Origin: Cellulosimicrobium funkei
Lineage (GTDB): Bacteria > Actinomycetota > Actinomycetes > Actinomycetales > Cellulomonadaceae
Assembly: GCF_004519295.1 (NCBI RefSeq)
Contig: NZ_SOZH01000004.1
Location: 310,001-374,000 of the forward strand
Direction of reading: 5' to 3'
Length of the DNA: 64,000 nt
Below, in pieces: positions 15,014 through 32,445 of the stretch. The notes below the pieces were generated by a model, which worked only from the letters and a program-made list of their open reading frames with translations, searched no databases and had not been told where the DNA came from. The position numbers and the translations under genes are program-made. Each line of letters begins with the position of its first letter. Position 1 is the first letter of the stretch.

Positions 15014-15838
15014 ATGGCCAAGAACACCACGCCCGACTTCGTGCTGCGCCCGTTCGAGGGGCTCCCCGGCGAGACCGACTGGGTCGCGATGCGCGAGGTC
15101 GTCCCCTCGGCCACCGCGACCGCGCGCACGACCGCCGAGCACGGGGCGCGCGACGTCCTCGTCGTGACGGTCCTGCCCGCCGGCTGGGCCGCGCTGCACC
15201 GCCAGGACGGCGCGATCCTCCTCGCCGTCCAGACCCTCGCCGGCTCGGGCGACACGAGCCGCGACCTCGCCGCCGCGCTCCTCGAGGCGATCGACGCCGA
15301 GCCCGGCACGTCCATCGAGACGAGCGCCCTGCCCGACGCCGGCCCGCGCCTGCAGGACGTGCTCGACCTCTCCGTCCCGTTCGACGTCACCGTGCACGAG
15401 GACTTCGCGTTCTGGCTCGACCCGTCGGCGGAGATCACGCCCGACCTGCGCGCCTCGCTCGACCAGGCGGCCGAGTCGATGGTGCCCACCGTCAAGCTCG
15501 ACGCGGTCGAGTCGGCGTACTGGTGCCGCATGTCGCGCGAGTTCCTGCGCTGGGCCCGCCCCGAGCCGGAGGACGCCCTCATCGACGCGATCTCGCGCCT
15601 GCACGCGAAGCGCGAGTCCGGCCTCGCGGGCGGCAAGTTCGTCGGCGCCTTCCGGTCGAGCGGCCTGCTCGTCCCCGTCTGGGAGCTGCCCCGCGGCACG
15701 GAGGCGGACGAGCTCGAGGGCCCGGTCGCGGAGCTCGACGCGCGGCTCACCGAGGCGCTCGCGGTCACGGAGCCGCTCGACGCGAACGAGCGCCGTGCGC
15801 GCGCGGGCATCGTGTCCCGGCAGGTCACGCTCCGCTGA
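15014..15838 (+). CDS. DUF5926-like conserved actinobacterial protein
   Basis: 274 residues, soluble, beginning MAKNTTPDFVLRPFEGLPGE. The overall pattern, including GETDWVAMREVVPSATA early and SREFLRWARPE late, matches a conserved uncharacterised actinobacterial family that I recall as DUF5926. No catalytic motif is evident. A strong terminator follows, and the gene after it encodes a glycosyltransferase. The start is set by the leaderless -10. Function unknown. Confidence 0.7.
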   Translation: MAKNTTPDFVLRPFEGLPGETDWVAMREVVPSATATARTTAEHGARDVLVVTVLPAGWAALHRQDGAILLAVQTLAGSGDTSRDLAAALLEAIDAEPGTSIETSALPDAGPRLQDVLDLSVPFDVTVHEDFAFWLDPSAEITPDLRASLDQAAESMVPTVKLDAVESAYWCRMSREFLRWARPEPEDALIDAISRLHAKRESGLAGGKFVGAFRSSGLLVPVWELPRGTEADELEGPVAELDARLTEALAVTEPLDANERRARAGIVSRQVTLR

Positions 15839-16063: not shown

Positions 16064-16945
16064 GTGAACGCGGACCATCGGTCGACCGATACGGGGAAGA
16101 ACACGGGGAGTGCCCCCACGAGCACGGCGAGCACGCCGCCGACGTACCTGTCGGCGTCCGGCACGCGGGCGCGCACGCCGCGCCCCGTGGCCGGTGACGG
16201 GCGCACGGGCCGCGCCGTCCGCCAGCGCGTCGCGGTGATCATCCCCGCGAAGGACGAGTCCCGCCGCATCGCCGCCACCGTGCGCGCCGCGAAGGCCATC
16301 CCGCACGTCGACCTCGTGCTCGTCGTCGACGACGGGAGTGAGGACGACACCCAGCACGTCGCGCGCGAGGCGGGCGCCGTCGTCGTGCGGCACTCCCACA
16401 ACCGCGGGAAGGCTGCGGCCATGGAGACGGGCGCCGCCGTCGTCGCGATGCGCGACGCGGCCGACCGCCCGCCGCGCCTCCTGCTCTTCATCGACGGCGA
16501 CCTCGGCGAGACCGCGGTGAACACCGCGCCGCTCGTCGCGCCCGTGCTCGACGGGTACGCCGACGTCGCCATCGCGCTGCTCCCGCCGCAGCCGGGCGCG
16601 GGCGGCCGGGGGATCGTCGTGGGGGCCGCGCGCCGCGCGATCCAGTCCCTCACGGGGTGGACCCCGACGCAGCCCCTCTCCGGGATGCGGTGCCTCACGC
16701 GCGAGGCGTTCGAGGCCGCGACGCCGCTCGCGCGCGGGTGGGGCGTCGAGACGGGCATGACGATCGACCTGCTCCGCAAGGGGTACGTGGCGGTCGAGGT
16801 GCCGTGCGACCTGCGCCACCGCGCGTCGTCGAACGACCTCAAGGGCCAGCTCCACCGCGCCGCCCAGTACCGCGACGTGCTGCTGGCGGTGAACGCGCGC
16901 AAGATGCGCTCCGCCGTCGACCGCGTGCGCGCGGGCGACCACTGA
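16064..16945 (+). CDS. Family-2 glycosyltransferase (GpgS/dolichyl-phosphate mannosyltransferase-like)
   Basis: 293 residues. A ~50-residue Ser/Thr/Pro-rich head precedes a soluble GT-A domain. The nucleotide-binding motif is VVDDGSEDDT (87-96), the N-R-G-K switch is HNRGKAAAM, and the DxD motif is IDGDLGE (D144, D146). PLSGMRCLTREAF and GWGVETGMTIDLLRKG resemble glucosyl-3-phosphoglycerate synthase and polyprenyl-phosphate sugar transferases. No membrane helices are present, so the acceptor is soluble or the enzyme is peripheral. The GTG start agrees with the leaderless -10. The substrate is not established. Confidence 0.85.
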   Translation: MNADHRSTDTGKNTGSAPTSTASTPPTYLSASGTRARTPRPVAGDGRTGRAVRQRVAVIIPAKDESRRIAATVRAAKAIPHVDLVLVVDDGSEDDTQHVAREAGAVVVRHSHNRGKAAAMETGAAVVAMRDAADRPPRLLLFIDGDLGETAVNTAPLVAPVLDGYADVAIALLPPQPGAGGRGIVVGAARRAIQSLTGWTPTQPLSGMRCLTREAFEAATPLARGWGVETGMTIDLLRKGYVAVEVPCDLRHRASSNDLKGQLHRAAQYRDVLLAVNARKMRSAVDRVRAGDH

Positions 16946-22992: not shown

Positions 22993-23940
22993 ATGTGCAC
23001 AGGGATCAGGTTCTCGGACGACCAGGGCAGCGTGTACCTGGCACGCAACCTCGACTGGACGAGCGGCTACGGGCAGCAGGTCGTGGTGACGCCCACGGGC
23101 TACGCGCCGCGCTCGCCGTTCGGCGCCGTGCGCTCGATCGAGCACGCGGTCATCGGCATGGGCATCGTGGAGGAGGACACCCCGCTCTACTTCGACTGCG
23201 GCAACGACGCGGGCCTGGCCGTCGCGGGGCTCAACTTCCCGGGCTACGCGGCCTACGCGCCCGGGCCGGTCGACGGCGCGGTCAACGTCGCCGCGTTCGA
23301 GCTCCCGCTGTGGGTGTGCGCGCAGTTCGCGAGCGTGGACGAGGTCGAGGCAGCCCTCGCGGACGTGGTGGTCGTCGACCGTCCCATCAACGAGAAGTAC
23401 CCCAGCTCGATGCTGCACTGGATCGTCGCCGACGCGCAGCGCGCGATCGTGCTGGAGCACACGGCGGACGGCCTGCACGTGTTCCAGGACGACGTCGACG
23501 TGCTCACGAACCAGCCCGGGTTCGACTGGCACCACGAGAACCTGCGCAACTACCTCAACGTCTCGCCGGACTTCCCCGAGGACACGGTCGTGGGCCGGGC
23601 CCACCTCGCCCCGTTCGGCTCGGGCTCGCACATGCGCGGCGTCCCCGGCGACTACTACTCGCCGTCCCGGTTCGTCCGGGCCGCGTACGTCAACTCCCAC
23701 TACCCGACGAAGGGGACCGAGGAGGAGAACGTCAGCCGCGCCTTCCACACGCTGCAGCAGGTCGCGATGGTCGACGGCTGCGCCGCGATGGGGTCGGGCG
23801 AGTTCGAGATCACGGTGTACACCGGGCTCTTCTCGTCCCGCACCTCGACGTACTACTGGAACACCTACGAGGACCCGGCGATCCGGAGCGTCGCCCTCGG
23901 TGACCACGCCACGGGCGGCACGGAGCTCGTGCTCGTCTAG
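22993..23940 (+). CDS. Choloylglycine hydrolase-family (Ntn, C59) amidase
   Basis: 315 residues. The ATG is followed directly by Cys2, which becomes the N-terminal nucleophile after Met removal. R18 and D21 (ARNLDW), N173 (LTNQPGFDWH) and R229 (FVRAAY) fall at or next to the canonical bile-salt-hydrolase/penicillin-V-acylase positions. No signal peptide is present. The enzyme cleaves a linear amide, such as conjugated bile salt, penicillin V or acyl-homoserine lactone; quorum quenching or amide scavenging is more likely than bile metabolism in a soil-type organism. GGGGGCAG precedes the start. The 122 bases upstream hold no other gene. Confidence 0.9.
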   Translation: MCTGIRFSDDQGSVYLARNLDWTSGYGQQVVVTPTGYAPRSPFGAVRSIEHAVIGMGIVEEDTPLYFDCGNDAGLAVAGLNFPGYAAYAPGPVDGAVNVAAFELPLWVCAQFASVDEVEAALADVVVVDRPINEKYPSSMLHWIVADAQRAIVLEHTADGLHVFQDDVDVLTNQPGFDWHHENLRNYLNVSPDFPEDTVVGRAHLAPFGSGSHMRGVPGDYYSPSRFVRAAYVNSHYPTKGTEEENVSRAFHTLQQVAMVDGCAAMGSGEFEITVYTGLFSSRTSTYYWNTYEDPAIRSVALGDHATGGTELVLV

Positions 23941-23944
23941 CGCG

Positions 23945-26900
23945 TCACGGCGCCACGCTCCCGACGCCCGTCGTGGAGCCCGCCTCGGTGCGCTCGTCCG
24001 GGTCCTCGCCCTCGCCCTCGGCCGTGCCGTCGGCGTCGTCCGCCGCATGGAGCGCGGCGACGGTGAGCAGCGGCACCGCCGGGATGAGCGCGACGAGCGC
24101 GATCCGCACGCCGAAGTCGTTGACGAGGGAGCCCGCGACGGCCACGATCCACAGGGCGAGCAGGGTCGGGCGCACGAGCGGCCACGCGGCCTCCGTGCGT
24201 GCGAACCAGCGCGGCGTGAAGCGCCGGGGCCAGAAGAGCAGCAGCGCGGTCGCGACGAGCACGGCGATGGTCAGCCACACGGGCACCCCGCCCAGCACGG
24301 ACCGCGCGGCGTAGCCCGCCTTGCGGAGCAGCGTCTCCCACGCCGACCCGTCGACCACCTGCTCGACGAACCGCCCGAGGTGCGAGCGCTCGTCGGCCGG
24401 GCGCAGCCAGTCGAGCACGCCGACGGCGGCGACGAGCGCGACGCCCGCCGTGGCGACGAGCAGGAAGCGGCGCCACGTGACGCGCGCGCCCGAGGCGGCG
24501 AGGCCCAGCACCGCGAACGCGGGCACGACGACGAGACCGCCGCCGAGGTCGGCGCCGAGCGTCGGCCACACGTCCACGACCATCGTCACGAGGCCGATGA
24601 CCCCCACCGTCGCGGCGGCGACGTAGCGGTGGCCGCGCGCGACGAGCCACTGCGCGAGCGCCGCGGCGACGACGAGCGCCGCGACCGCGTACACGGAGAA
24701 CGTCGGGTTCCCGAACCCGTAGAACCGGGCGCCGAACGTCGGTGCCGAGCCGAGCGGGCTCGCCCGGTTGAGCGGGGTGCCGACGAGCGCGTCGAGCGTG
24801 AGCACGGCGAACGTGATGCCAGCGACGATCCCGGGCCCGAGCCACACCGGCCGACGCGGGGCGAGCGCGCCCAGGCCGGCGACGGCCGCCGTCGCGAGGA
24901 CCGTGGAGACGACGATCGCGAGGGTCTGGTTCCCGAACCGCCACCAGCCCGTGAGCGACACCAGGAAGGCGGCGGTGGGCACGGCGGCGACGACGAGCGC
25001 GGAACCCCGGGCCCAGTGCGCCGCCCGGGCCCAGCGGGCGCGCGCACGGTCGCCCGTCGCTCGCCTGGCGCGCGGCGCGAGCAGGAGGCAGAGCCCGGCG
25101 ATCGCGAGCCCCGCGTAGAGCGGCACGTCGACGAACGCGGTGTAGACGGCGCGGCGCACGTGGTCGCGGGTCGTGAGGTCGGCGAGGGCGTCGGCGGTCG
25201 ACGTCGCGTCGGCCGGGCGCGGCGAGCCCCAGGCCAGCGGGGTGTCCTGGATCCGCGCCGGGGTGGCGGCGCCCGCGGCGTCGAGCACCGTCGCGGGGAC
25301 GTCGAGCACGCGCGCGACGCCGTCGGTCCGGGTGGCGGCGCTCGTCAGGTAGCGCGACTGGTCGGGGCCGTCGGACGACGGGCGCACGAGCGCCGTGCCG
25401 AGCGCCGGGCGCGTGCCGGGCGTCCCGGCGACGTCCACGACGAGCACGGTCGTGCCGCTCGGGGCCGCGTCGAGCACGGCGCCGACGGTCGCGTCGACCG
25501 CGGTGAGGCGGTCGGCGCGCAGGGTGCTGCGCAGCGTGGCGCGCTCGTCCGCCGGGAGGCCGGGGTCAACGACCGGCGGGGTCGCGTCGCCCGCGTCGAC
25601 GACGGTCACGGGGCACGCGAACGCGTCGGAGCCGGGTGCGGTCGTGTCCGCGAGGTCGCGGTAGCGCGCGACCTGGCCCGCGGAGTCCGCGAGCGCGACC
25701 GCCGCACCGGGGCCCACCGCCGTCGCGCACACCGCGCCGTCGGCGCCGGCTGCGGCGAGCGCGTCGCCGAGGACGCCGAGGCGCGCCTGGTAGCCCGAGC
25801 CGCGCTGGAGCGCGACCAGGTCGTCCCACCCCTCGACCCGCGCACCGTCCGCGCCGTCGGGGGCGGGCTGTACCGTCGGGCACGCCCACGCGCCGTCGGG
25901 CGCGCGCTCGGTCGTGACCTCGGCGAGCTGCCCGGCGGAGAGCGCGAGCCAGCCGCCGACGGTGCAGCGGCTCGCCGCGCCCGTGGGCTGGGAGACGCCG
26001 CCGGCGCCCGCGCCGTCGGTGAGCAGGGCGTGGAGGTTCGGGGTGGCGGACGACGTGACGTCGCTCCACGTGACGCCCGTGGTCCCGACGACGACGACCG
26101 GCCGGTCCGTCGCGATCGCGTCGGAACGGGTCACCGACGCCTCGCCGCCCGCCGGGGCGGCGCTGGCCGCCGGTCGGAGCCCCGTCGAGGCGAGCACCGT
26201 GGCGGCGAGCAGGACGACGAGCAGGAGCCCGCCTCCCACCGTCGCGAGCATCGTCGGCATGCGCCGGATCCCCGGCTCGGGGACGGCTCCCGCGGTCTGC
26301 CGGGGCGCGGGGCGCGCGAGGAACCCCGGGACGATCATCGCGGTCGCGACCACCACGACCATGACGGCGATGATGACGCCCGAGTCGTTGAGGACGGAGC
26401 CGACACCCGCGACGACGACGAGCGCGACGACGAGCGGGCGCAGCACCGGCCAGGTCTCGTAGGCCCGCGCGACCTCCGGGAGGCGGAAGCGCTCGGGGCG
26501 CAGCACGGCGACGGCCACGAGGACCACGAGCACCGCGGCGACCGCGCCGAGCGGGTTCGCGAGGGTCGCCCACGCGCCGAGCGCCTTGCGGCCGATCACG
26601 TCGAGCGCGGCGCCGTCCACGACGGTCTGGACGAACCCGCCGAGGTGGGACCGCCCACCCGGCAGCAGCCAGTCGACGACCGCGACGACCACGACCACGA
26701 GCACCGTCGCGAGCGCGACGACGAGCGCGCGCAGCCACGTGATGCGGATGCGGCCCACGAGGAGCGCGAGGACGGCGAACGCGGGGACGAGGGCGAGGAT
26801 GCCGCCGAAGTCGGCGCCGAAGGCTGGCCAGCCGTCGATGACGACCGTGACCACCCCGACGGCGACGACGGACCAGGCCGCGAGCCGACGCAGTCCGCGG

Positions 26901-28615
26901 GCGGTCGCGGCCGACGCGAGGCCGCCCGCGAGCACGAGGCCGGCGACGGCGTACACGGCGAAGGTCACGTTGTTGAAGCCGTAGAAGCGCGTGAAGCCCA
27001 CGACGGCGGACGTCCCGAGCAGGGACGCCTGCTGGAGCGTCGTGCCGGTCGCGCCGTCGACGGTGAGCACGAGCCACGTCACCCCCGCGAGGGCCGACGG
27101 CAGCGCCCAGGGGCGCCGCGGGAGGAGACGTGAGACGACCCACGCGACGAGGGCGACGACGACCGCGCTCACCGCGAGCGCCAGCGTGAGCGCCGGGGCG
27201 GGCGCGCTCCACACCCACCAGCGGGACAGGCTCGCGAGCGACGCCGCGACGGGAGCCGCCGCGACCACCATGAGCACGGCGGAGAGCACGCGCAGGCCGC
27301 GCGGCCCCGGGCCGGGCTCGCGGCCGCGGCGGACGGCGGCGCGGCGCGCCCACAGGACGCCGCCGAGCGCGAGGACCAGGGTGGCGACGAGGAGGCCCAC
27401 GAGCACGGGGTAGAGCGTGGGGATGGTGCTCGTGAGGACGTTGAGGTACTGCCGGTTCTCGACCGTCCGGGCCACGTCCATGCGACGGACCTCGCCCTGC
27501 TCCAGGGCGGCGCCCTCAAGGCCTTCGGTGCTGCCGCCCGCCGACTCCACGACGGTCGCCGTCAGGTCGGTGAGCTGGACGATGCCGTCCTTCTGCGTGC
27601 TCGGCGAGTGGAGCCACCGGCTCGTCGGCTGCCCCTTGCGCCAGTCGACGACGACCTGGAGCCCCGTCTCGCCGACCGGTCCGGCGGACACGCCGGCCAC
27701 GACGACGCGCGTGCCCCGATCGACCTCGTCCATGATCCGGGCGAGGGCCTCGTCGAGCTCGTCGAGGCTCTCCCCGCGCCCGGTGGCCGAGTCGACGATC
27801 TCGCCCTGGTCGACGACCGTCACGTCGCACGCGTCGAGGCCGCCGGCGGGGAGGGCGGCGAGCGAGGGCGTGTACCGCTCGACGTGACCGACGGCGTCCG
27901 CGAGCATCACCGCGGCACCCGGCCCGACGGCGGTCGTGCAGACGCCCGTCCCGGCGATCCGGGCTGCGGCGGTCCCGGGGTCGTGCCGTGCCGCCTGCGC
28001 GGGCGTCTCCTCCGTGGCAGGCGCCGTGAGGACGGCCCAGCCGGGGACGTCCGCGGGGCGTGCGTCGGGCGTGGTCGTGCCGGTCGTCGCGACGGCGGGC
28101 ACGGGCACGGGGAGGCAGCCGCTCGCCGGCTCCTCGGCGTCGGCGGGGAGCGGCTCCGCGGGCTGCTCCGCCGTCTGGGCCGAGACCATGCGCCCCGCCG
28201 ACAGCGTGAGCCACGCGTCGGTCGTGCACACCGTGCGCCCGAGGTTGAGCGACGCGACGGACCCCGTCCGGATCATCGACCACAGCGTGGGCGTCGCGGT
28301 GGGGGAGACGTCGCTCCAGTACAGGCCGGCCACCGCGACCAGGACGACGGGCCGCGGGTCGTGCGTCGGCGCGGCGGCGAGCGGGCTCGCGGTCTCGGCG
28401 ACGCCGGCCGCTGTGCCCGGGCCTCCCGACGCGACCGCCGGGGGCGCCCCGGTCGTCGCCGCCGCGGTGGTCGCCGTTGCCGGGCCCGCCGTCGCGAGGA
28501 GCGTCAGCAGCAGCGCGACGGCGGTGGCGAGCGCCGCCGTCCGCCGCCCGAGGCCCCGGTCCCGGCGGACGGGCTGGGTGCGGGCAGGGGGGAGCGCGGC
28601 GGCCGGGAACGTCAC
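23945..28615 (-). CDS. Giant membrane protein made of two tandem copies of an ectodomain-plus-membrane module
   Basis: 1556 residues from a GTG start. A signal-like segment lies at ~28-48. Module 1 covers about 85-770 and module 2 about 830-1540. Each starts with an extracytoplasmic domain (GLYWSDVSPTATPTLWSM versus GVTWSDVTSSATPNLHAL; TVCTTDAWLTLSAG versus RCTVGGWLALSAG) that resembles the alkaline-phosphatase/phosphodiesterase superfamily start. Each then has about ten membrane helices with RFYGFNNVTFAVYAVA versus RFYGFGNPTFSVYAVA, a shared D-x-WP-x2-GAD-x-GG block, and SHLG-x-FV-x2-VVDG. Catalytic metal residues are not clear. It may act on cell-envelope polymers; that is inference. It stands alone and is divergent from the FBP gene. 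Confidence 0.8.
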   Translation of the reverse strand: MTFPAAALPPARTQPVRRDRGLGRRTAALATAVALLLTLLATAGPATATTAAATTGAPPAVASGGPGTAAGVAETASPLAAAPTHDPRPVVLVAVAGLYWSDVSPTATPTLWSMIRTGSVASLNLGRTVCTTDAWLTLSAGRMVSAQTAEQPAEPLPADAEEPASGCLPVPVPAVATTGTTTPDARPADVPGWAVLTAPATEETPAQAARHDPGTAAARIAGTGVCTTAVGPGAAVMLADAVGHVERYTPSLAALPAGGLDACDVTVVDQGEIVDSATGRGESLDELDEALARIMDEVDRGTRVVVAGVSAGPVGETGLQVVVDWRKGQPTSRWLHSPSTQKDGIVQLTDLTATVVESAGGSTEGLEGAALEQGEVRRMDVARTVENRQYLNVLTSTIPTLYPVLVGLLVATLVLALGGVLWARRAAVRRGREPGPGPRGLRVLSAVLMVVAAAPVAASLASLSRWWVWSAPAPALTLALAVSAVVVALVAWVVSRLLPRRPWALPSALAGVTWLVLTVDGATGTTLQQASLLGTSAVVGFTRFYGFNNVTFAVYAVAGLVLAGGLASAATARGLRRLAAWSVVAVGVVTVVIDGWPAFGADFGGILALVPAFAVLALLVGRIRITWLRALVVALATVLVVVVVAVVDWLLPGGRSHLGGFVQTVVDGAALDVIGRKALGAWATLANPLGAVAAVLVVLVAVAVLRPERFRLPEVARAYETWPVLRPLVVALVVVAGVGSVLNDSGVIIAVMVVVVATAMIVPGFLARPAPRQTAGAVPEPGIRRMPTMLATVGGGLLLVVLLAATVLASTGLRPAASAAPAGGEASVTRSDAIATDRPVVVVGTTGVTWSDVTSSATPNLHALLTDGAGAGGVSQPTGAASRCTVGGWLALSAGQLAEVTTERAPDGAWACPTVQPAPDGADGARVEGWDDLVALQRGSGYQARLGVLGDALAAAGADGAVCATAVGPGAAVALADSAGQVARYRDLADTTAPGSDAFACPVTVVDAGDATPPVVDPGLPADERATLRSTLRADRLTAVDATVGAVLDAAPSGTTVLVVDVAGTPGTRPALGTALVRPSSDGPDQSRYLTSAATRTDGVARVLDVPATVLDAAGAATPARIQDTPLAWGSPRPADATSTADALADLTTRDHVRRAVYTAFVDVPLYAGLAIAGLCLLLAPRARRATGDRARARWARAAHWARGSALVVAAVPTAAFLVSLTGWWRFGNQTLAIVVSTVLATAAVAGLGALAPRRPVWLGPGIVAGITFAVLTLDALVGTPLNRASPLGSAPTFGARFYGFGNPTFSVYAVAALVVAAALAQWLVARGHRYVAAATVGVIGLVTMVVDVWPTLGADLGGGLVVVPAFAVLGLAASGARVTWRRFLLVATAGVALVAAVGVLDWLRPADERSHLGRFVEQVVDGSAWETLLRKAGYAARSVLGGVPVWLTIAVLVATALLLFWPRRFTPRWFARTEAAWPLVRPTLLALWIVAVAGSLVNDFGVRIALVALIPAVPLLTVAALHAADDADGTAEGEGEDPDERTEAGSTTGVGSVAP

Positions 28616-28747
28616 CGGACCAGCCTACGGGGGCGCGACGCGCCGCCCCCGACCGCCCCGGCCGCGTCCGCGCAGGTCCGCGCGCGACGCTCACGCGGCC
28701 TCCACGGGGGCTGCGCGCAATCTTCTGGACGGGCAGACTTGGGAACG

Positions 28748-28771
28748 TGTACAAATTGTATCCATGTACAA
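28748..28771. promoter_or_regulatory. Overlapping TGTACA/TACAA palindromes before the FBP-TetR operon
   Basis: TACAAATTGTA (28750-28760) is palindromic, and its right half also pairs with TACAA at 28767-28771 (TTGTA-N6-TACAA). TGTACA occurs at 28748 and 28765. The AT-rich block is striking in this GC-rich DNA and lies 16-39 bases before the GTG of the FBP gene. It is probably the operator of the co-encoded TetR. Confidence 0.65.
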
Positions 28772-28786
28772 GTTGAAGGAGCGACG

Positions 28787-29311
28787 GTGCGTGCGCTGAC
28801 CCGCGCCGAGGCGCGGTCCGCGATCGTCAACGTCGACCCGGCGGAGGGGAAGGTCCGCCTGCCCGGCCACTTCGACGCGCTGCGCTGGGAGGAGCTCGAC
28901 TACCTCGGGTGGCGCGACCCGCGCGCGCCCTCCCGCGCGTTCCTCGTCGCGGACGTCGACGGGCGCGCGGTCGGGGCGCTCCTGCGCCAGAGCCCGAGCC
29001 ACGCCGAGGCCGGGTCGCGCGCCGTGATGTGCGCCCTGTGCCGCTTCTCGCGGCGCTTCAACGAGGTCGCGCTGTTCGCGGCGCACCGGCCGTCGCGCGA
29101 CCCGCGGAAGCGGCTCAGCAGCGTGGGCCTCCTGCTGTGCACCGACCTCGACTGCCATCGCAACGTCGGGACCGTCCGGTCCGGCGGTCCGCTCGACCCC
29201 CCTCCCGACGAGGTCGTGCGGACTCGTCGGGAGGGCCTGCGGGCGCGTACCGTCGCGTTCCTGCACACCCTGACCGACGGCGCCCCGACGGCGCGGACGA
29301 GGAGTCGTTGA
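28787..29311 (+). CDS. FBP/EF-G-binding-type zinc protein
   Basis: 174 residues. The four cysteines C82, C85 (MCALC) and C118, C123 (LLCTDLDC) with SRRFNEVALFAA between them define the treble-clef zinc finger of the FBP family. Its Staphylococcus namesake was called fibronectin-binding, and relatives (FusB type) bind EF-G and protect it from fusidic acid. The start GTG follows AAGGAG. It overlaps the TetR gene by one base (TGATG). A ribosome-protection function is a family inference. Confidence 0.82.
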   Translation: MRALTRAEARSAIVNVDPAEGKVRLPGHFDALRWEELDYLGWRDPRAPSRAFLVADVDGRAVGALLRQSPSHAEAGSRAVMCALCRFSRRFNEVALFAAHRPSRDPRKRLSSVGLLLCTDLDCHRNVGTVRSGGPLDPPPDEVVRTRREGLRARTVAFLHTLTDGAPTARTRSR

Positions 29312-29877
29312 TGGCCTACCTGCCGCGCGCGGAGCGTCGGGACTCCATCGTCGCGGCAGCGGCGGCCGTCGTGCGCCGCGACGGGCTCGGCGCCGTCACC
29401 GCGCGCGTCGTCGCCGACGAGCTCGGCGGGTCGCCGGGGCAGATCCACCACCACTTCGCGTCGACGGACGAGCTCGTCGCCGAGGCGTGGCGGCGGTACG
29501 CCGACGTCGAGATCGGCGCCTTCGAGGAGGCGGCCCGCGGCCGCTCCGCCCGTGCCGCGCTCGAGCTCTTCTTCGAGGACCTGCTCGGGCCCGGCGGTGA
29601 CGGCCAGGCGCTCGCCCGGTGGGCGGAGGCCGGGGCGCACGCGCAGCTGCGGCCCGCCGTCGCGCGGGCGTACGTGGAGACGCTCGGGCTCCTGACCGAC
29701 GTCCTGGCGGACGTCCTCGGCGACCGCGGCGACGCGCGACGTCGGGAGGCGGCGGGACGCCTGCTCATGGTCGGCGTCGGTCTCGCGGGCCTCACTCGCG
29801 TCGGTGGGGAGCGGGTCGTCCCGCCGGCGGCGGTCATGCGGTCGGCGATCGACGCGGAGACGGCCCGCGCGGACTGA
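29311..29877 (+). CDS. TetR-family regulator paired with the FBP protein
   Basis: 188 residues. The helix-turn-helix includes AVTARVVADELGGSPGQIHHHFAS (its QIHHHF end replaces the usual LYYHF). The C-terminal domain is helical and resembles regulators of drug or envelope-stress genes. It is translated by reinitiation at TGATG after the FBP gene and probably binds the palindromes at 28748-28771. Its ligand is unknown. Confidence 0.88.
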   Translation: MAYLPRAERRDSIVAAAAAVVRRDGLGAVTARVVADELGGSPGQIHHHFASTDELVAEAWRRYADVEIGAFEEAARGRSARAALELFFEDLLGPGGDGQALARWAEAGAHAQLRPAVARAYVETLGLLTDVLADVLGDRGDARRREAAGRLLMVGVGLAGLTRVGGERVVPPAAVMRSAIDAETARAD

Positions 29878-29954: not shown

Positions 29955-31088
29955 TCAGGCCGTGCGGACCACCAGCGCACCCGGGTCGACGCGCGTCTCG
30001 ATCTCGACGGCGAGGCCCAGCACGTCGCCGTCGACCTGCGCCTGCTCGCCCTCCTCGACGCGCACCCGGACCCGCCGGGCGCGCGCGTGGTCGATGCGCC
30101 CGATCTTGGCGGGCAGGTCGTTCCGCACGCCGAGGCCCTGCATGACGACCTCGCCGAAGAGCTGCGCCCACCCCACGACGCCGCCGCGCGTGTCGACCGC
30201 GGCGACGTCGAGCACGCCGTCGTCGATCACGGCGTCGGGCAGGAGCGTGATGCCGCCGGGGAGCCGCCCGCAGTTGCCGATCATGAGGGAGCGCAGCCGC
30301 GCGTCGACGGGCGGCGAGTCGTCGAGCTGGATGCGGGCCCGCATGCGCCGGCCGTGCAGGTGGCGGATCCCGGCGACGAAGTACGCGACCCACCCGACCT
30401 TGGCCTTGAGCTCGTCGTCGGCGTCGGCGACCATCGCGGCGTCGAACCCGAGGCCCGCGATGACGAGGAAGATGTGCTCCTTGCCGGGCTCCCGGACGGG
30501 GTCGAGGGTCGTGCCCTCCACGTCCCCGGGACCCGCGGGGTCCGCGTACCGCAGGACCGTGACCCAGCCGACGTCGATCGGGCGGTCCGACCCCGCGATC
30601 ACGACGGCGAGCGCCGCGCGGGCGTCGCCCACGGGCAGGTCGAGGTTGCGCGCGAGGAGGTTGCCGGTGCCGACGGGCACGAGGCCCATCGTTCGGCCGC
30701 TGCCGACCATGCCCTCCGCGACCGCCCGCACCGTGCCGTCCCCGCCCACGGCGACGACGACGTCCGCCCCCTGGGCGAGCGCGGCGCGGGTCTGCCCGAC
30801 GCCCGGGTCGGCGACCGTCGTCTCGAACCACAGCGGGTCCGGGAGCGCGGCGTCGGCGAAGGCGCGGCGCACCACGGCCTCCAGCCCGACGACGTCGGGC
30901 TTCGACGGGTTGGCGACGAACGCGACGAGCTCGCGCGGGTCGTCGTCGAGGGGCGTCTCCTCGACGGGGAGGTCCGCGCCGTGCGCGCGCCGCAGGCGCG
31001 ACTGCTGGGCGCGCAGCCCCAGCGCGACGACGAGGGCCACGACGGCGACGGCGAGCGCCGCGATCGCGACCCAGAGGGTCCAGGCCAT
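29955..31088 (-). CDS. Diacylglycerol kinase-family lipid kinase
   Basis: 377 residues. One N-terminal membrane helix (~5-25) anchors the protein. The catalytic domain carries the ATP-binding GGDGT (115-119) and LVPVGTGNLLARNL, followed by the long beta-sandwich with DAVIDDGVLDVAAV. This matches the YegS/DgkB family, which phosphorylates diacylglycerol or related lipids. The N-terminal anchor is typical of actinobacterial members. It is divergent from serS with 73 bases between them. Confidence 0.9.
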   Translation of the reverse strand: MAWTLWVAIAALAVAVVALVVALGLRAQQSRLRRAHGADLPVEETPLDDDPRELVAFVANPSKPDVVGLEAVVRRAFADAALPDPLWFETTVADPGVGQTRAALAQGADVVVAVGGDGTVRAVAEGMVGSGRTMGLVPVGTGNLLARNLDLPVGDARAALAVVIAGSDRPIDVGWVTVLRYADPAGPGDVEGTTLDPVREPGKEHIFLVIAGLGFDAAMVADADDELKAKVGWVAYFVAGIRHLHGRRMRARIQLDDSPPVDARLRSLMIGNCGRLPGGITLLPDAVIDDGVLDVAAVDTRGGVVGWAQLFGEVVMQGLGVRNDLPAKIGRIDHARARRVRVRVEEGEQAQVDGDVLGLAVEIETRVDPGALVVRTA

Positions 31089-31161: not shown

Positions 31162-32445
31162 GTGATCGACCTCCGCCTCCTGCGCGACAACCCCGACATC
31201 GTCCGTGCCAGCCAGGTCACCCGTGGTGACGACCCCGCGCTGGTGGACGCCGCCCTCGACGCCGACGCGCGCCACCGCGCCGCGCTGAGCGAGTTCGAGA
31301 GCCTGCGCGCCGAGCAGAAGTCCCTCGGCAAGCAGGTCGCGCAGGCGCAGGGGGAGGAGAAGCAGGAGCTGCTCGCGCGCACCAAGCAGCTCGCCGCCGA
31401 CGTCAAGGCGCGCCAGGCCGACGCGGACGCCGCGGCGGAGGAGCTGCGCGGGCTGCTGTTCCGCATCTCCAACGTCGTCGAGGGGGCGCCTCCCGGGGGC
31501 GAGGACGACTACGTCGTGCTGCGCGAGGAGGGCACGATCCGCGACTTCGCGGCCGAGGGGTTCACGCCGCGCGACCACCTGGAGCTGGGCGAGGGCCTGC
31601 GCGCGATCGACACCGAGCGCGGTGCGAAGGTCTCGGGCGCCCGGTTCTACTACCTCACGGGCGTGGGTGCGCGCCTCGAGCTCGCGCTGCTCAACGCGGC
31701 GATGGACACGGCGGTCGCGGCGGGCTTCACGCCCGTCATCACGCCGACCCTCGTGCGGCCCGAGGTCATGCAGGGCACCGGGTTCCTCGGCGCGCACGCG
31801 GACGAGATCTACCGCCTGGAGAAGGACGACCTCTACCTCGTCGGCACGAGCGAGGTCGCGCTCGCGGGCTACCACGCGAACGAGATCGTCGACCTGTCGG
31901 GCGGCCCGCTCCGGTACGCCGGGTGGAGCGCGTGCTACCGCCGCGAGGCCGGCTCGCACGGCAAGGACGTGCGCGGCATCATCCGCGTGCACCAGTTCCA
32001 CAAGGTCGAGATGTTCTCCTACTGCGACCCGGCCGACGCCGCCGCGGAGCACCAGCGCCTGCTCGGCTGGGAGGAGCAGATGCTGCGCCTCGTCGACCTG
32101 CCGTACCGCGTCATCGACACCGCGGCGGGCGACCTCGGGTCGAGCGCCGCGCGCAAGTTCGACTGCGAGGCGTGGCTGCCCACCCAGCAGCGCTACCTGG
32201 AGCTCACGTCGACGTCGAACTGCACGACGTTCCAGGCGCGCCGCCTCAACGTGCGCGAGCGGGTCGAGACGGACGGCAAGACGGAGACGCGGACCGTCGC
32301 CACGCTGAACGGCACCCTCGGCACGACGCGCTGGATCGTCGCGATCCTCGAGAACCACCAGCAGCCCGACGGGTCGGTCCGCGTGCCCGAGGGGCTGCGG
32401 CCGTACCTCGGCGGCCTCGAGGTCCTCGAGCCGGTGGTGGCGTGA
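31162..32445 (+). CDS. serS: Serine--tRNA ligase
   Basis: 427 residues, normal for bacterial SerRS. The N-terminal coiled-coil arm (~30-105) that grips the long variable arm of tRNA-Ser is visible as alternating charged heptads. The class II core has the [13 protein letters not shown] block, the motif-2 region [22 protein letters not shown] and motif 3 [18 protein letters not shown] (its NGTL...R core). Two tRNA-Ser genes lie in the same window. The GTG start is leaderless. The stop overlaps the HAD gene (GTGA). Confidence 0.97.

Follow-up and report, generated by a model that had tools for sequence, protein, structure and literature searches.

A fused two-module membrane protein of Cellulosimicrobium funkei with a degenerate alkaline-phosphatase-type ectodomain and a possible role in envelope glycan assembly

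Members of the alkaline phosphatase superfamily (e.g., iPGM, NPP, sulfatases, and the ectodomains of YejM/PbgA and LtaS) carry a metal-binding Asp on the first strand and a Ser, Thr, or Cys nucleophile. Proteins of the LtaS and PbgA type have an N-terminal transmembrane (TM) bundle and a C-terminal ectodomain, while PIG-N, PIG-O, and PIG-G, the eukaryotic glycosylphosphatidylinositol (GPI) ethanolamine phosphate transferases of the endoplasmic reticulum, begin with an alkaline-phosphatase-like ectodomain that is followed by a multi-TM part. A 64,000-nucleotide stretch of Cellulosimicrobium funkei (contig NZ_SOZH01000004.1, positions 310,001 to 374,000; hereafter the window) encodes a 1556-residue protein built from two copies of an ectodomain-plus-membrane module. 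The window protein shares the superfamily fold, but differs from the superfamily in that the first metal Asp is rare, the nucleophile position is not conserved, and a many-helix membrane core follows. In the structural models the ectodomain comes first and the helices after, which reverses the LtaS/PbgA order and resembles that of the GPI transferases, although the catalytic set is unconserved in the module. O-antigen ligases (Wzy_C, PF04932) are likewise polytopic, and in other genomes the module lies near genes for lipid-linked glycans. The module family probably handles lipid-carried sugars on the outer side of the cell membrane.

The protein is encoded by an open reading frame (ORF) with a GTG start, and is the only ORF in its own genome to match the module family, which it does twice (E 1.2e-280 and 4.5e-243). 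The original prediction of a tandem duplication was borne out by self-alignment: residues 88-761 and 838-1517 align significantly, with 39% identity over 713 columns (BLASTP between the two parts, E 8e-84; 42% identity between modules A and B in a MAFFT alignment), and all five of the predicted landmark blocks are found in both halves in identical order. Structure prediction of each half, which had been proposed as a check, gives confident AlphaFold2 models for module B (predicted local distance difference test score (pLDDT) 94.4, predicted template modelling score (pTM) 0.92) and module A (pLDDT 90.9, pTM 0.90), built on alignments of 82 and 66 modules. Both share a layout of an alpha/beta domain of ~300 residues and then a helical part, in which 11 TM helices are counted from the module model's helices and hydropathy. 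The hydropathy profile shows an N-terminal signal-like segment, an ectodomain and many hydrophobic segments in each half, and an extra segment between the halves. The layout is as follows.

23945..28615, minus strand: fused two-module membrane protein, 1556 residues (ORF and self-alignment)
28466..28615, minus strand: signal peptide-like segment, residues 1-50 (hydrophobic stretch 25-53), with its role and cleavage presumed from hydropathy
27476..28360, minus strand: module A ectodomain, residues 86-380, alkaline-phosphatase-superfamily fold
26318..27475, minus strand: module A membrane core, residues 381-766, polar set D520 R543 N549 D602 H657 K677 N743 D744
26159..26263, minus strand: inter-module hydrophobic segment, residues 785-819, with origin and topology presumed from hydropathy
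25208..26110, minus strand: module B ectodomain, residues 836-1136, alkaline-phosphatase-superfamily fold
23996..25207, minus strand: module B membrane core, residues 1137-1540, polar set D1275 R1297 N1303 D1356 H1412 K1432 N1499 D1500

An alkaline-phosphatase-like start of the ectodomain without a complete catalytic set had also been predicted, and both parts of that description hold. Foldseek searches with the module models find the core alpha/beta fold of the superfamily in both ectodomains, with the YejM periplasmic domain as the top row (6vat, E 1.2e-3). The first metal Asp is present in only 4 of 60 aligned modules (L105 plus its strand copy, L113, L114, and L116; loci are cited by L numbers), another residue stands there in 51, and 5 have a gap. 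No conserved nucleophile was seen in the module alignment, and the remaining metal ligands were judged by eye. A profile alignment to Xac NPP (whole-sequence E 0.02, with single stretches non-significant) likewise sets something other than Asp opposite the first Asp and shows nothing conserved around the nucleophile.

The strongest conservation of the module lies in the membrane core, where most of the near-invariant residues are found rather than in the ectodomain. Eight polar residues stand out across the 60 modules (module B numbering): R462 is present in 60, H577, N664, and D665 in 59 each, D440 in 58, N468 in 57, K597 in 54, and D521 in 53. Near-identical copies (L001, L002, L003, L010, and L038), modules shorter than 600 residues, and L022 were removed before one of the alignments; the nine A modules of Promicromonospora were omitted from that alignment and a second one, so that the conservation read from these two describes the remaining A modules, and are restored in the following count. 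All eight residues are intact in 16/16 single modules, in 43/45 B modules (the two exceptions being cut or frame-broken), and in 32/41 A modules, where all nine exceptions belong to Promicromonospora. The retention of the set in 32/32 A modules elsewhere agrees with the earlier expectation that both copies are under selection. Because the signal segment and 11 helices set the orientation, the conserved motifs are predicted to face outside, with the near-invariant ones on one side of the membrane only; counts of Lys and Arg are mostly higher in the inner loops of the core. A single module in a same-class genome (the same gene at L075 and L112) lacks five of the eight residues and is possibly an inactive form.

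Single-module homologues, a search for which had been suggested, were found among 67 related loci from a scan of genome contigs and elsewhere in the phylum. Both modules are joined in one ORF at 40/67 loci (Cellulosimicrobium, Oerskovia, Isoptericola, Promicromonospora, Antribacter, Xylanimonas, some Actinotalea, and others), which rules out two separate genes or a frameshift as the source of the double protein. A single module occurs at 16/67 loci (Cellulomonas, Pengzhenrongella, other Actinotalea, Myceligenerans, Thermocatellispora, an Acidothermales metagenome-assembled genome (MAG), an Arcanobacterium MAG, and two more MAG contigs), L067 is a weak match, and the ten remaining loci are contig ends or frame-broken copies. 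An additional single module is present in Nonomuraea (L068). Several records deserve separate mention. In the complete genome of Paraoerskovia sediminicola (L039, 7620-12736) the gene is broken across three frames, reflecting either a sequencing error or a decaying gene. The record named Sphaerisporangium cinnabarinum (L010) holds a copy 96% identical to that of the window, with shared neighbours, and probably comes from an assembly that is wrongly labelled or contaminated. A MAG contig assigned to Proteobacteria (L046, BP9 series) is probably mis-binned, since in the tree it groups with an Actinomycetes MAG from that series. The 11.85 Mb Nonomuraea gerenzanensis record of L068 (NZ_LT559118.1), listed as a plasmid, has serS and pheA homologues and looks like a chromosome.

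Three neighbours of the fused gene in the window can be matched to genes beside the module at a related locus (L056).

16064..16945, plus strand: GT2 glycosyltransferase (PF00535, E 5.1e-13), 84% identical to the L056 GT2
29955..31088, minus strand: lipid (diacylglycerol-type) kinase homologue, a syntenic neighbour 67% identical to the L056 lipid kinase (itself PF00781, E 1.8e-20)
31162..32445, plus strand: SerS (seryl-tRNA synthetase, named from its sequence), a syntenic anchor 82% identical to its L056 counterpart

The GT2 gene lies ~7 kb from the fused gene, and a GT2 homologue is near the module in most related loci. Amongst loci longer than 16 kb, serS is found at 32/35 fused and 12/12 single loci (the latter including L068), the lipid kinase at 35/35 and 10/12, and GT2 at 29/35 and 12/12; fused and single forms thus occupy a common locus. 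A homologue of a ~275-residue protein without a name (window 15026-15835) adjoins GT2 at 28/35 fused and 10/12 single loci of this length. The genes flanking the fused ORF (window 23032-29877) are presumably hydrolase-like (choloylglycine-hydrolase-like by eye), FBP-like, and TetR-like, and recur in some close relatives. GT87/MptA-like neighbours are present at L042 and L052, and a homologue of one is present at L068.

Across a phylum-wide sample of Actinomycetota, 89/296 genomes contain a match to the module family (partial matches counted), and among the matches listed the only open frame longer than 1300 residues is the window's own. Eighteen loci were taken from these genomes, and homologues of neighbouring genes were sought with seeds from one of them, L117, where Pfam confirms SteA-like, MctB, MurJ, and GT4 proteins and scores Glycos_transf_4 below its cut-off (the L116 counterpart is above it). 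Near the module, SteA was found at 10, MctB at 9, MurJ at 11, GT4 at 11, and Glycos_transf_4 at 13 of the 18 loci, with MurJ, GT4, and Glycos_transf_4 occurring together at eight (L103, L107-L112, and L117) and GT2 at two (L105 and L116). SteA/SteB are reported to be tied to cell separation in Corynebacterineae (PMC6705760).

The reading that we favour, at slightly less than even confidence, is that the window encodes a two-module, outward-facing protein of polyprenyl-linked glycan assembly, in which the core is a transferase and the dead phosphatase fold serves as a lid or docking domain. The membrane core would be the working part of each module, with an outer-face polar site of Asp, Arg, Asn, Asp, His, Lys, Asn, and Asp, and the ectodomain would be catalytically inert. 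Most likely, the protein would transfer a lipid-linked sugar or oligosaccharide on the outer leaflet (a polymerase or ligase step), once the Glycos_transf_4 initiator, the GT4/GT2 enzymes, and the MurJ-type flippase found alongside the module elsewhere have acted. The core is read as a transferase because a cluster that already supplies an initiator of polyprenyl-linked sugars, cytoplasmic glycosyltransferases, and a flippase is still short of an enzyme to polymerise or ligate at the outer leaflet, and because the module is polytopic, apparently outward-facing, and conserves acidic, basic, and amide side chains. A broader proposal, offered tentatively and judged less likely than not, is that the modules form an undescribed, phylum-wide family of outer-leaflet glycan polymerases or ligases, with a core of their own and a dead lid, that supply the missing last step of the polyprenyl-glycan cluster beside steA/steB-like genes in many Actinomycetota, and that fusion in the Cellulosimicrobium lineage produced a single-chain enzyme with two diverged sites (e.g., one starting and one extending, or two with different acceptor specificities).

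Several observations weigh against the favoured reading. In tblastn, the SteA, MctB, MurJ, GT4, and Glycos_transf_4 proteins of L117 matched nothing in the window or the first 67 loci, so that the case made from the glycan cluster comes from other lineages; since the cluster does not adjoin the gene in the window lineage, the functional argument there rests on the GT2 neighbour and on orthology. Six of the 35 fused loci show no GT2 in the examined flank, and the synteny with serS and the lipid kinase may be chromosomal backbone. Four of the 18 phylum-wide loci (L104, L113, L114, and L115) show none of the five cluster proteins, and at L112 homologues of MurJ, GT4, Glycos_transf_4, and SteA lie next to the residue-depleted module, i.e., five of the eight core residues have been lost beside a full glycan cluster. 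The inner-positive rule has an exception, as the outer loop 569-576 also contains Lys and Arg. The whole-module fold searches return ectodomain matches only among the best 50 rows each, and none to the membrane core; as the ectodomain fills these rows, the missing core rows are not evidence of a new fold. In a core-only Pfam scan of 52 sequences at E up to 5, in which the HMMER filters discard most weak matches, no family fits the core: 23 families appear, each in one member, and the best (DUF6056, E 0.0069) was taken as chance. Neither PF04932 nor the C-terminal family of the GPI ethanolamine phosphate transferases is among the 23. When the core profile was aligned with 29 of 30 O-antigen-ligase-type ORFs (L143 being dropped), hhalign gave probabilities of 17.3 and 20.4%, not usefully above the column-reversed control (7.9 and 17.8%). 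The same weak alignment, collinear over the core, places the module's R-x-Y-G-x-G-N-P on the Wzy Arg...Gly-x-Pro-Asn and G-A-D-x-G-G near T-x-S-R-G, which may be a lead and is not a test.

The searches of databases and literature are in keeping with the earlier suggestion of an undescribed envelope protein; the polymer exporter proposed alongside it is neither borne out nor contradicted. At E up to 1 the window protein matches nothing in Pfam, NCBIfam, or the sequences of the PDB, and searches with its four parts, extended to E 10, yielded two rows that were taken as chance. Amongst six other module proteins scanned against Pfam and NCBIfam (L042, L052, L045, L059, L065, and L067), only L042 came close to a relevant match (PF01663, E 0.014, below the cut-off), and no NCBIfam model fits the window protein or any of the six. 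A PDB profile search with the core returned no relative and one unrelated row (E 1.2), 34 pattern matches in viral contigs included no relative of the module, and a literature search, mostly without subscription journals, recognised no paper about the module family. The ectodomain fold is a known one and the membrane core has no family name in the libraries used, though this stops short of making the core categorically new.

Amongst the alternatives, a non-enzymatic sensor or scaffold of envelope growth similar to PbgA/YejM, which would bind lipid or glycan and regulate cell-wall enzymes, is unlikely, though the one that fares best. It would account for the YejM domain heading the fold matches, for SteA and MctB near about half of the 18 loci, given the reported link of SteA/SteB to cell separation (PMC6705760), and for the retention at L112 of a module without most of its polar set. 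Elsewhere, however, the near-invariant residues lie mostly in the membrane core, and in PbgA/LtaS-type proteins the TM part comes first. A flippase or exporter, with the core moving a lipid-linked glycan or glycolipid across the membrane and the ectodomain gating its release outside, is improbable: a polytopic core with a conserved polar cluster and glycan-assembly neighbours in other genomes would suit it, but a MurJ-type homologue is already near the module at 11/18 loci and the near-invariant motifs appear on one side only.

The history of the two modules bears on the original suggestion of an obligate intramolecular pseudo-dimer, in which neither module works alone. In a tree of 90 modules (quick method; L001, L002, L003, L010, L038, L022, L049, and L012 left out), 36 A modules form one group and 38 B modules group with the three Myceligenerans singles (Shimodaira-Hasegawa-like approximate likelihood ratio test (SH-aLRT) 100 for each), while the other 13 singles fall outside both. 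The simplest reading of this grouping is one duplication and fusion with later loss of A in Myceligenerans, where 3/3 loci hold only a B-type module. In Promicromonospora, the last helices of the A core are missing in three aligned proteins and the eight-residue set is broken in 9/9 A modules examined, an apparent half-way state of decay. At 35/39 loci, module B shares more identity with the window protein than module A does (sign test p 3e-7, with related loci counted as independent; the identities are from BLAST segments of unequal length, those of Promicromonospora A and L012 B being partial). Tandem pairs recur in the phylum, as adjacent separate genes at L101, L102, L103, L104, and L106 and as a divergent pair at L105. 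In a tree of 36 chosen rows (quick method), sister relationships join the A and B modules of the window (SH-aLRT 85) and the paired modules of L104 and of L106 (100 each), from which at least three separate origins of tandem pairs are probable; L101/L102, L103, and L105 provide further pairs. This recurrence, together with the conservation of both sites in most fused proteins, makes two sites seem useful and would favour a pseudo-dimer; pairing as such is not contradicted, given the adjacent pairs of separate genes. Nevertheless, because A diverges faster, decays, and is lost, an obligate symmetric pair is disfavoured and we consider it quite doubtful, although modules that occur singly could still form homodimers. 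We favour instead an asymmetric protein with two sites, the core activity being that of B. A single tandem duplication and fusion would have given A+B before the radiation of the fused Cellulomonadaceae/Promicromonosporaceae lineages, after which A diverged faster and decayed in one lineage. Segment 785-819 may be the former signal segment of module B, turned into an internal TM segment that preserves topology; it would be needed because ectodomain B must be placed outside, and a hydrophobic 19-mer lies within 80 residues ahead of module B at 39/39 fused loci checked.

Finally, a phosphotransferase of the LtaS/EptA or GPI-ethanolamine-phosphate-transferase type with its active site in the ectodomain is very improbable, for although it would share the superfamily fold and the PIG-N/PIG-O-like order of domains, the first metal Asp is nearly always absent, the nucleophile is not conserved, and the core has no Pfam match to such a family.

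About three in ten of the sampled Actinomycetota genomes match a family whose membrane core nevertheless fits no Pfam model. If the protein does polymerise or ligate a conserved envelope glycan, it would put a name to the enzyme still lacking from a pathway whose remaining components are encoded beside the module in many genomes. The intact double protein, the half-decayed double of Promicromonospora, and the reverted single of Myceligenerans offer natural experiments in which one-site and two-site forms can be compared.
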